64,000 nt of DNA from Hydrogenophaga sp. (GTDB taxonomy: Bacteria; Pseudomonadota; Gammaproteobacteria; Burkholderiales; Burkholderiaceae_C), in the NCBI RefSeq assembly GCF_014773545.1, contig NZ_SDDV01000002.1, forward strand, positions 1 to 64,000. The letters are read 5' to 3'. Shown here piece after piece: positions 10,737 to 59,177 of this stretch. The notes under the pieces are model-generated. The model did no database searches and was not told where the DNA came from. It worked only from the letters and a program-made list of their open reading frames with translations. The translations under genes and the position numbers were made by a program. Each line of letters starts with the position of its first letter. The first letter of the stretch is position 1.

Positions 10737-11756
10737 ATGTTGGATGACCGCGCCAAACTGCTGCTCAAAGCCCTGATCGAGCGTTACATCGCCGACGGTC
10801 AGCCGGTGGGTTCGCGCACGCTGGCGCGCGCCACGGGGCTGGAGCTTTCCGCCGCCACGATTCGCAATGTGATGAGCGATCTGGAGGAGTTGGGCCTGAT
10901 TGCCAGCCCGCACACCTCGGCCGGGCGCGTGCCCACCGCGCGCGGCTACCGCTTGTTCGTCGACAGCATGTTGACCGTGCAGCGCGATCGCTTGGGCGAC
11001 TGGAGCGATATGGGCGCTGCTGGCATAGAGGTTGGCCAACCGCAGCGCGTTATCAGCAACGCCGCCCAGATGCTGTCGAATCTGTCGCATTTCGTCGGGG
11101 TGGTGGTGACGCCGCGGCGCGCGTCGGTGTTTCGGCACATTGAGTTTTTGCGCTTGTCGCAACACCGGGTGCTGGTGATTCTGGTCTCGCCAGACGGCGA
11201 CGTGCAAAACCGCATCATCCACACCCAGGTCAGTTTCACCCAGACCCAGTTGCTGGAAGCGACCAATTTCCTGAATGCTCACTACGCCGGCCTGACGATA
11301 GAGGAGGTGCGCGCGCGGCTCAAAACCGAACTCGATAGTTTGCGCGGTGAAATTGCCGCGCTGATGCAGGCGGCGGTCGAGATCGGTGCCCAGGCGAATG
11401 CCGAGCAGGACGAGGTGGTGCTCGCGGGCGAGCGCAACCTGTTGTCGATCAATGAGTTCTCCAACGACATGGGTCAGTTGCGGCGGCTTTTCGATTTGTT
11501 TGAGCAAAAGGCACAGTTGATCCGTCTGCTCGATGTATCGGCCCAGGCCGACGGCGTGCGCATCTACATAGGCGGTGAAAGCCAGGTGCTGCCGCACGAG
11601 GACTTGTCGGTGGTGACGGCGCCGTACGAGGTCGATGGTCAGGTGGTCGGTACGCTGGGCGTGATCGGGCCGCAGCGCATGCCCTACGAGCGCATGATCC
11701 AGATCGTCAACATCACCGCCCGGCTGGTCAGCAACGCGCTCAGCCACGGCAGATAG
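10737..11756 (+). CDS. hrcA: Heat-inducible transcription repressor HrcA
   Basis: HrcA binds CIRCE operators and represses chaperone genes. It has 339 residues: an N-terminal winged helix ([19 protein letters not shown], then [34 protein letters not shown]), a central GAF-like region and a C-terminal segment ending in [16 protein letters not shown]. The start ATG gives [10 protein letters not shown], the normal family N-terminus. The only CIRCE seen in this window is at the rpoH promoter (9477-9503), so rpoH is its likely local target. Confidence 0.96.
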
Positions 11757-11806
11757 CGCCAGCGGCGCCTGCTTATCGCTCATGCGCCTACAATACACCC
11801 TGTGTG

Positions 11807-12134
11807 GGGCCGTTAGCTCAGTTGGTCAGAGCAGAGGACTCATCAAGCAAGGTGACCACGGGGCGAAATCCCCGTCGGAAAAACCGGGTGAACTCAAGGA
11901 ACCCTAAAGCGCAAGCCAAGGCAATCTTGAGCCAAGCCCGCCGAAGGCAGGTCGCAAGACCGGTAGGCGGGAAGGTGCAGAGACTAGGACGTGAGGAGCC
12001 ATTCCGATAAACGTCCCCCGAGCGCCCGGCACCCCAACAGCGCGGCTGTGGGTGATGAAATAGTCCAAGGAGTGGGGAAACTCACGCAAACTTGAATCCT
12101 TTGGTCGTTGGTTCAAGTCCAACACGGCCTACCA
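11807..12134 (+). tRNA. tRNA-Ile (CAU, lysidine-modified type) interrupted by a group I intron
   Basis: Exons are 11807-11843 and 12095-12134. Joined, they give a full cloverleaf: acceptor GGGCCGT/ACGGCCT, D-stem GCTC/GAGC, anticodon stem GAGGA/TCCTT with loop CTCATAA, T-stem GTTGG/CCAAC, and an encoded CCA end. The anticodon is CAT at 11841-11843. The variable and T-arm sequence (TGGTCGTTGG) resembles tRNA-Ile2 rather than elongator tRNA-Met, so C34 is probably converted to lysidine by TilS; tRNA-Met remains possible. A -10-like TACAAT lies at 11789-11794. Confidence 0.88.
11844..12094 (+). ncRNA. Group I self-splicing intron (251 nt) in the tRNA anticodon loop
   Basis: Inserted directly after the anticodon. 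The 5' exon ends in CAU and can pair with GUG in GGTGACC (11851-11857), giving the U-G wobble of P1. Core segments match group IC3 ribozymes: ACCCTAAAGC (11901-11910), GGCAATCTTGAGCCAAGC (11920-11937), GGTGCAGAGACTAG (11974-11987) and AATAGTCCAAGGAGTG (12059-12074), then GAAACTCACGCAAACTTG ending in the terminal G at 12094. The Azoarcus tRNA-Ile(CAU) intron has the same position and very similar core (established knowledge). There is no internal endonuclease gene. Confidence 0.92.
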
Positions 12135-12148
12135 ATTACTCTTTTTAC

Positions 12149-12187
12149 GAGGCCTCAAGGCATATCGCTTTGAGGCCTCTTTTCTTT
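12149..12187 (+). terminator. Intrinsic terminator after the split tRNA
   Basis: GAGGCCTCAA (12149-12158) pairs with TTGAGGCCTC (12170-12179) and is followed by TTTTCTTTCT. A ten-base-pair stem with a U-rich tail 15 nt after the tRNA end. Confidence 0.85.
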
Positions 12188-12238
12188 CTGGTCAATGACT
12201 TACGAGGTTTTTTGTCTTATGGCGTGTCAGTGAGCATT

Positions 12239-12447: not shown

Positions 12448-12702
12448 ATGGGCACAATGAACATATCCCTACCCGACACGCTCAAGTCCTTCGTGGATGA
12501 GCAGGTCAACCAAGGCAGCTACGGCACCAGCAGCGAGTACGTGCGTGAGCTGATCCGCAAGGATCAGGATCGCCTGCACCTGCGTGGCCTCCTGCTCGCG
12601 GGCGCAGCGTCGGCCCCGACTGCTCCGGCCGATCCAGCCTACTTTGAAGGGCTGCGTGATCGGGTGCGCAAGGCGGCCAAGGTAGGCAGCGCTCGCGGGT
12701 GA
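12448..12702 (+). CDS. parD: ParD-type antitoxin
   Basis: An 84-residue ribbon-helix-helix protein. The N-terminal strand MNISLPDTLKSFVDEQV and helices NQGSYGTSSEYVRELIRKDQ are diagnostic for ParD; the C-terminal half (LRGLLLAGAAS onward) is the flexible part that wraps the toxin. It should neutralise the ParE toxin and repress its own operon. Its stop overlaps the GTG start of the toxin gene (GTGA). ATG at 12457 is an alternative start. Confidence 0.9.
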   Translation: MGTMNISLPDTLKSFVDEQVNQGSYGTSSEYVRELIRKDQDRLHLRGLLLAGAASAPTAPADPAYFEGLRDRVRKAAKVGSARG

Positions 12703-13028
12703 CGGCCAAGCCTGTCGTTCCGCGTGAGCTGGCCAACCGGGACATCGACGACGCGATTGCCTACTACCTGAGCGAGGCGGGCGAAGCCGTGGCTCTCGGT
12801 TTCATCGACGCGCTGGAGAAGGCTTACGGCCACATCGCTCGCCATCCTGCAACGGGCTCGCCGCGTTACGCCCACGAACTCAACTTGCCCGGCCTGCGTT
12901 TCTGGCCGCTGGCACACTATCCCCACCTCGTTTTTTACGTCGAGCGTCCAGAGCAAATTGATGTCTGGCGCGTGCTGCACGGCCAGCGCGACATCCCGGT
13001 GTGGATGCAGGAACCCGAAACCCTCTGA
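12699..13028 (+). CDS. parE: ParE-type toxin (RelE/ParE superfamily)
   Basis: A 109-residue protein with GTG start overlapping parD. The family layout is clear: RELANRDIDDAIAYYL helix, IDALEKAYGHIARHPATGSPRY, and the terminal strands FWPLAHYPHLVFYV and IDVWRVLHGQRDIP. ParE toxins inhibit DNA gyrase; the exact target here is inferred from the family and the ParD partner. Confidence 0.9.
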   Translation: MTAKPVVPRELANRDIDDAIAYYLSEAGEAVALGFIDALEKAYGHIARHPATGSPRYAHELNLPGLRFWPLAHYPHLVFYVERPEQIDVWRVLHGQRDIPVWMQEPETL

Positions 13029-59024: not shown

Positions 59025-59153
59025 GGCTCACCAGGGGTTCAGGCTGAAACTGGTGAGCGCCGTTGGAGCCGGGCAAGCGGCAGGCACCTTATTGTCCGGT
59101 TGACTCAAGCCTGACGCCGACACGGGGGCCGGCGCTGCAGCGCTCCTTGAGAG
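59025..59153 (-). promoter_or_regulatory. S-adenosylhomocysteine (SAH) riboswitch of metH
   Basis: Minus strand 59153 to 59050. P1: CTCAAG (59151-59146) with CTTGAG (59109-59104). The conserved core GGAGCGCTGC (59146-59137) can pair as a pseudoknot with GGCGCTCAC (59061-59053), and AGGCTTGAG closes the domain, all as in Rfam SAH riboswitches (RF01057). Expression platform: CTCACCAG (59057-59050) can also pair perfectly with CTGGTGAG (59034-59027), which sits 3 nt before the metH ATG. SAH binding should lock CTCAC in the pseudoknot and free the start region, turning metH on. Confidence 0.87.
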
Positions 59154-59177
59154 GGTGGCATTTTAGTGGTTGCAGCG

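Follow-up and report, generated by a model that had tools for sequence, protein, structure and literature searches.

A tRNA-Ile(CAU) gene of Hydrogenophaga sp. interrupted by a long-class group I intron, and its proposed origin from integrative elements found in relatives

The DNA analysed here (the window) comprises the first 64,000 nucleotides of contig NZ_SDDV01000002.1 of Hydrogenophaga sp. It is practically certain that positions 11807-12134 (+) are a tRNA-Ile(CAU) gene interrupted by a group I intron (Table 1), as had been proposed by a sequence-only reading of the window. The insertion point is directly 3′ of the anticodon base U36. In an Infernal search, the group I covariance model RF00028 matched positions 11831-12087 with 63.7 bits (cut-off 50, E 8e-14), and the insert, whose exact boundaries agree with the reading, is missing as a block from congeneric loci. 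Exon 1 begins with GGGCCGTTAGCTCAG and ends with ...GGACTCAT, and exon 2 reads AATCC...ACGGCCTACCA. When the exons were joined, ARAGORN called a CAU tRNA, labelled 'Met' (the program has no Ile2 label of its own), which matches the tRNA of congeners without gaps. TilS recognizes tRNA-Ile2 by the determinants C4-G69 and C5-G68, and the acceptor GGGCCGT/ACGGCCT fits this rule. The CAU anticodon, the cloverleaf and a TilS gene in the same genome (C4:46434-46976, 137.8 bits, cut-off 93.6) together assign the gene to tRNA-Ile2(CAU). The intron contains no ORF of at least 80 aa, in agreement with the description of it as ORF-less; the longest stop-free run in any frame is 79 codons. The expectation that tRNA finders miss or mis-size such genes came true with ARAGORN, which called no tRNA in the whole window in default mode and in intron mode detected the gene, misplaced the junction and labelled it tRNA-Gln(UUG). 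The label, which would make the locus a tRNA-Gln(UUG) gene carrying a 251-nt intron, is practically out of the question and was rejected, since the junction so read lacks the group I terminal G, the tRNA body matches the tRNA-Ile(CAU) of congeners and an intact tRNA-Gln(UUG) exists in the genome (L028).

Table 1 Features of the split tRNA-Ile(CAU) locus (positions in the window)
Feature	Position	Strand	Basis or remark
hrcA, frequent upstream neighbour	10737-11756	+	Pfam HrcA
TACAAT, probable −10 box	11789-11794	+	Kept in congeners
tRNA-Ile(CAU) exon 1, acceptor 5′ strand to anticodon CAT	11807-11843	+	37 nt; sequence, congener match
P1: UCAU↓C 11840-11844 with GGUGA 11851-11855 (arrow, 5′ splice site)	11840-11855	+	U-G at 5′ splice site; 5 pairs in 29/29
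Group I intron	11844-12094	+	251 nt, C...G; RF00028, one-block absence in 15/16 congeneric loci
P3: 11884-11890 with 12023-12029	11884-12029	+	98.5% of cells paired
P4: 11894-11899 with 11925-11930	11894-11930	+	99.4% of cells paired
P5	11903-11905/11919-11921	+	93.1% of cells paired
P7 pseudoknot: GACUA 11982-11986 with UAGUC 12061-12065	11982-12065	+	Unchanged in 29/29
Extra hairpin, P7 5′ strand to P3 3′ strand	11987-12016	+	95.4% paired; two-sided changes in 3/6 pairs
P9 hairpin, GAAA loop	12072-12085	+	Two-sided changes in 5/5 pairs, 100% of cells paired
tRNA-Ile(CAU) exon 2 including encoded CCA	12095-12134	+	Sequence, congener match
Terminator-like hairpin and T tail, 3′ of tRNA	12149-12189	+	13 pairs, loop 5, TTTTCTTTCT

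The motif CTACAAT lies 8-13 nt 5′ of the uninterrupted tRNA in 15/15 congeneric loci and is also found 5′ of the split gene in the window, where a consensus promoter scan returned nothing. Among the matches listed, hrcA was the same-strand neighbour at 22/34 places of the long class and 30/83 of the short class (the classes are defined below), L061 being entered in both classes and 11 places having a short flank. Shuffling gave an expectation of 0.8 for sites like the terminator-like hairpin, so this site is weak evidence alone. A parD/parE-like toxin-antitoxin pair lies behind the split tRNA (12448-13028), and a SAH riboswitch was found at 59048-59154 (−; 49 bits, cut-off 37).

Introns for comparison were sampled in two ways. 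The RF00028 search of 299 genomes of the family yielded at least 36 with a match under strict filters, by which the second intron of the genome studied here was lost. A search for the 3′ splice-junction pattern in named genomes gave at least 119 stretches, a sample biased to that pattern. Among at least 151 pattern places, exon 1 was recognised at 117 and not at the other 34, several of them near a contig start. Four of the latter (L116, L139, L155 and L184) are apparent chance matches; L171, with exon 1 present and its intron masked, was placed in neither class, and some genomes were counted twice, with one entry per collection. Among the matches listed, the long class comprises 34 introns (29 distinct) of 240-279 nt with the guide GGUGACC, and the short class 82 introns (79 distinct) of 199-255 nt with the guide GUGC. 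The window intron is a member of the long class. Its terminal G and its U-G pair at the 5′ splice site, both noticed in the sequence-only reading, are kept in 29/29 distinct long-class introns.

The conserved core claimed for the intron was supported from P3 to P9 by a 73-pair structure, including the P7 pseudoknot, in which 96.0% of the cells of the 29 distinct long introns are paired, 31 pairs show two-sided changes and the covariation score is 0.285. With partners slid, the same measures were 33-41%, 8-11 pairs and 0.05-0.07; with columns shuffled they were 87.7%, 19.3 pairs and 0.130, and the real values were reached in 0 of 500 shuffles. Both P1 and P7 are invariant in the long class and so provide no covariation information. 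The fold of the window intron as a single sequence (z −1.78 against shuffles) is weak evidence alone. The P3/P7 pseudoknot is accompanied by P4-P6 and P8, while P10 appears weak or absent in the window copy. The intron had been described as IC3-like and placed at the same site as the Azoarcus intron, which lies at the same position after CAU and contains no ORF. The site is indeed the same, but the window intron belongs to a longer class, marked by an additional P7-P3 hairpin. Among the matches listed, P7 runs straight into P3 in 82/82 short introns and in 0/34 long ones including that of the window, which thus lacks the Azoarcus-like succession of the P7 and P3 strands; in this contrast the 82 short-class introns at the site stand in for the Azoarcus sequence.

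By analogy with the known family, the transcript would fold and UCAU↓C would pair with the guide strand GGUGA. A P7-bound guanosine would attack after U36, and the exon thus freed would then attack after the terminal G. The joined tRNA would be matured, and TilS would convert its C34 to lysidine, allowing AUA to be read. A dead intron, which would make the gene a pseudogene and leave AUA to a copy that the assembly lacks, is very improbable: two other essential tRNAs are indeed missing from the assembly, but the window intron retains the pairs and invariant columns of the 28 other distinct long-class introns and the exons are undamaged.

The assembly spans 2.21 Mb in 19 contigs, with a marker-based completeness of 99.98%, and contains 40 intact tRNA genes. 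Two intact CAU tRNAs occur besides the split gene (L003 and L025); their sequences read as those of the elongator and initiator Met tRNAs. The search for another tRNA-Ile(CAU) in the assembly found none, nor any tRNA-Ile2 pieces apart from the split gene. The suggestion that it might be the only tRNA reading AUA thus holds for the assembly; a second copy may lie in a gap, because tRNA-Asn(GUU) and tRNA-Arg(ACG), which the cell needs, were not found in the assembly either. AUA accounts for 5 of 93 Ile codons in eleven window genes (2,576 codons). Since the assembly has this sole tRNA-Ile(CAU), a TilS gene and AUA codons in use, the cell seems to need splicing of the split tRNA for the reading of AUA. 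Such dependence is predicted to be usual across the intron genomes of the family. An Ile intron after the anticodon was found in 29/299 genomes (G029 with a divergent tRNA body). The exact intact-gene pattern, present in 230/299 genomes overall, was missing in 28 of these 29, although it also misses 41 of the other 270 genomes; G173 has both an intron-split tRNA-Ile and the exact intact pattern.

The HrcA search covered 30 genomes, namely the one studied here, 17 congeners and 12 that represent other families of the order. It was positive in 29 of them, the exception being a congener. A tRNA-Ile(CAU) body lies downstream of hrcA in 16/16 hrcA-bearing congeners and beside hrcA in none of the 12 loci from the other families. 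In 15 of the 16 the tRNA is uninterrupted and shorter by exactly the 251-nt block. Over 72 gap-free nt, the joined window exons differ from these intact genes by one mismatch in seven cases and by 2-8 in eight. The remaining congener (L208, the same genome as L090) carries a long-class intron at the same site. Behind tRNA-Ile, tRNA-Arg(ACG) follows in 12/15 intact congeneric loci and is absent in the window.

The window, L090 and the 15 intact loci fall into one starred clade of the HrcA tree, and the introns of the window and L090 belong to different subtypes. A clade joining the two introns was rejected (p-AU 3.5e-49, log-likelihood difference 89), the group tested having been named after the subtypes had been noticed in the alignment; the position of the window intron itself has a support of 80/81. 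The 59-row HrcA tree shows 8 changes of the long label and 7 of the short label, of which starred branches force at least 5 and at least 4, respectively, and two changes of the intact label. The intron tree is in conflict with this host tree. The intron very likely reached the genome horizontally, and separate arrivals within one genus are well supported. An old intron inherited by plain vertical descent with many losses is improbable. It would suit the finding that many genera carry the intron at one and the same hrcA-linked locus, but the intact congeneric loci, the separation of the window and L090 introns in the intron tree and the number of class changes all stand against it.

In many relatives, a tRNA-Ile 5′ half ending at the anticodon lies 152-265 nt 5′ of the split gene; among the matches listed with at least 440 nt upstream, it was found at 6/28 distinct long-class and 32/72 short-class loci. 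A reading of these halves as a tandem intact tRNA, which used the AAT-after-CAT test only, was ruled out, as a 5′ half is really followed by other DNA. An exact match to the IHF consensus WATCAANNNNTTR occurs between half and split gene at 14/38 loci and at 3/62 loci without a half, about 0.4 being expected by shuffling; the IHF site is supportive, not general. Repeats such as TTGCTAC are present between half and split gene in several loci. In G120 and G268, TTGCTAC sites occur in the attL-like arm as well as in the attR-like arm. IHF-like sites (AATCAACAGCTTG and AATCAATGACTTA) also lie directly behind intact tRNA-Ile genes (L221 and L223), where they perhaps mark classical 3′-end integration.

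Fragments of the native gene were sought with the tRNA sequence in 13 chosen genomes, nine with a known or decayed half and four without, at an E cut-off that hides diverged 3′ halves such as L058. In G120, G268, G169 and G189 the native tRNA-Ile is present as two fragments, bases 1-41 and 33-77, which have the 9-bp core CTCATAATC in common, and the split tRNA begins 211-262 nt after the 5′ fragment. In these four genomes the host tRNA is split at the core and not rebuilt, and a spare of the same isotype is present. The native pieces are 21 kb apart in G120 (on one chromosome), 26 kb in G268 and 79 kb in G189, and are on different contigs in G169; an additional 3′ fragment lies on contig C4 of G268, and a second complete split tRNA lies between the native pieces of G189. 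Only the 5′ fragment was matched in G271, G123, G260 and G184, the last of which has an intron with a 3′ half (L058) 32 kb away, below the search cut-off. Neither fragment was matched in G305, whose half is decayed, and none in the four genomes of the long class that have no half upstream (G213, G283, G294 and G132). The acceptor stems in G120, G268 and G169 pair 7/7 between the native pieces, 7/7 between the exons of the split tRNA and 6/7 between native piece and split tRNA; those in G189 do not tell native from spare. The displaced 3′ piece of G169 is followed by tRNA-Arg(ACG), just as in most intact congeneric loci.

Tyrosine integrases (PF00589) are encoded within the G120 element and next to the G189 split tRNA, which is of the short class. 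Further short-class loci have homologues on the same strand, downstream of the split tRNA, namely L067, L093, L094 (4 kb away), L105, L109, L114, L115, L127, L133, L136 (a fragment) and L181; the short-class integrase had no match in long-class loci, and none of the three ORFs scanned in the G268 element is an integrase. The G189 cargo includes a CBASS-type cyclase and type I restriction genes, and that of G268 a type III methyltransferase. A Gabija-like GajA/GajB pair is present in the G120 element (L299:10628-14991). The split tRNA of long-class elements is followed by a protein of about 370-410 aa (L254:6716-7942, L177:4315-5490, L052:1836-2957 and L089), with a weak PF20109 match in the three scanned. 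L208 is arranged as in the elements, its 5′ half being decayed. The split gene of relatives would often be, judging from these arrangements, the spare tRNA of an integrative element.

The window copy itself shows neither displaced pieces nor element genes. No displaced tRNA half lies upstream of the gene, no stray tRNA-Ile half was found elsewhere in the genome and the long-class element protein had no match there in a search run without a positive control. The upstream flank is native-like and the downstream flank is unlike those of elements. Two solitary long-class copies of genus g120 (L054 and L060) have the same flanks, TGGTATGAAT before and CCATTCATYCACCATC after the tRNA, as the element-borne copy L052 of the same genus, which suggests that solitary copies may derive from elements. 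The window copy is probably such a solitary survivor. A tyrosine-recombinase element would insert at the 9-bp core in the tRNA-Ile anticodon loop and break the gene, bringing its own tRNA-Ile split by an intron of this kind. The native 5′ half would then recombine with exon 1 of the element and the rest would be lost, leaving, as in the window, the split tRNA alone behind the native promoter. This route is documented in relatives, and for the window we infer it with moderate confidence. The explanation as a whole, which combines the splicing mechanism, horizontal arrival of a long-class intron and the element route, is the best available and is likely to be right.

The main competitor, which we consider unlikely, is that the intron moved alone, by reverse splicing or gene conversion, into a native tRNA and that elements later took intron-bearing tRNAs as spares, the window having remained free of elements. 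The native-type promoter and clean upstream flank of the window and the failure to find any element remnant in its genome agree with this, as does the presence of group I introns in other tRNAs within the family (Leu, Arg and Thr). However, the intron has no room for a homing endonuclease (at most 79 codons), one genus holds two intron subtypes, one of them in the element arrangement, and the solitary copies L054 and L060 share the flanks of an element-borne copy, although the direction of this sharing is inferred.

The genome contains a second RF00028 match (C17:97160-97349), which at 38.2 bits is below the cut-off. ARAGORN in intron mode placed this intron in a tRNA-Leu(UAA) gene (G000:C17:97135-97446, equal to L002:1476-1787); no intact tRNA-Leu(UAA) is among the 40 intact tRNAs of the assembly, and an apparent decayed tRNA-Leu 5′ half lies about 200 nt upstream (L002 near 1257-1300). 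Similarly, group I introns were seen in an apparent tRNA-Thr(UGU), after U34 (L071), and in apparent tRNA-Arg(CCU) genes, after U36 (L079, L080, L082 and L083). L055 and L074 have a long-class-like intron near position 31/32 of tRNA-Leu(UAA); no junction was found in these two that keeps a normal 7-nt loop and satisfies the U rule as well as that of the terminal G.

The intron falls within the 9-bp core (CTCAT↓AATC). As the core is cut, the integrase by which the native gene was broken would be expected to act poorly on a split spare, and the intron may hide the spare tRNA from it. In its general form, this hypothesis says that betaproteobacterial anticodon-loop introns are kept for cutting CTCAT↓AATC in an essential spare and that solitary split tRNAs are the remains of decayed elements; we hold it only tentatively and would sooner doubt it than rely on it. 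A different-looking intron between U33 and C34 of tRNA-Ile-like CAU genes (L078, L081 and L085) also cuts the core. In an intron-independent search, 7 of 8 displaced 5′ halves with zero mismatches, among the matches listed, were followed by a split tRNA (G268, G123, G260, G184, G189, G169 and G120), and the eighth (G019) runs off the contig end; the zero-mismatch rows alone were used, as the one-mismatch version matched 220/299 genomes, intact genes included. Against the idea, L058 looks like the insertion of an element into a tRNA that was split beforehand, which is feasible because short-class introns beginning with AA leave CTCATAA. If the intron does hide the spare, tRNA introns have a function and are not neutral passengers.

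These results bear on the question of why ribozymes without homing enzymes persist in essential bacterial tRNA genes and how they spread. An essential tRNA-Ile(CAU), and tRNA-Leu(UAA) in the same assembly, appear from our predictions to depend on RNA self-splicing, and the relatives suggest a concrete vehicle, namely elements that break a tRNA and make up for it with a split spare, at times with phage-defence genes as cargo. In practice, ARAGORN misses or misnames such genes, and displaced tRNA pieces flag the ends of islands.

The group I intron of Azoarcus sp. BH72 comes from a pre-tRNA-Ile and is known as a crystallised ribozyme (PMC3984707; PMC6274277). It shares the pre-tRNA-Ile host and a G-U pair at the 5′ splice site with the window intron, but it is about 200 nt long with a 3-nt guide, in contrast to the 251 nt, five-pair P1 and extra P7-P3 hairpin found here. 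Acidovorax and Burkholderia have been reported, in the account of tRNAscan-SE 2.0, to carry group I introns in tRNA-Ile2 (Chan et al. 2021, PMC8450103); these concern the same kind of gene in related bacteria, and we found a long-class intron in Paenacidovorax caeni (L205). The accessible part of that account names no element, core or structural class.

The closest parallel to the elements is tRNA-dependent lysogeny of actinobacterial phages (Guerrero-Bustamante and Hatfull 2024, PMC10865867). There too, the target is a tRNA gene, including tRNA-Ile2-CAT with cores of 9 and 10 bp for two phages, the target is not rebuilt and the element supplies a tRNA; the word 'intron' occurs in one reference title only, whereas here the spare is intron-split at the core and the cargo consists partly of defence genes. 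In Sinorhizobium meliloti, prophage integration swaps the host tRNA gene for one like those of unrelated bacteria (PMC11476347), so that a foreign tRNA is supplied as would be the case here, but the word intron is absent from that text. IStrons (PMC4227781) ally a group I ribozyme with a DNA mobility system, which is an IS element there and an integrase with a tRNA here. No paper tying tRNA group I introns to integrase cores was found among the titles and abstract openings listed by searches of an open-licence library, which misses most subscription journals. Introns of this kind at this tRNA are already known, and what appears to be new is the long class and its link to integrative elements.
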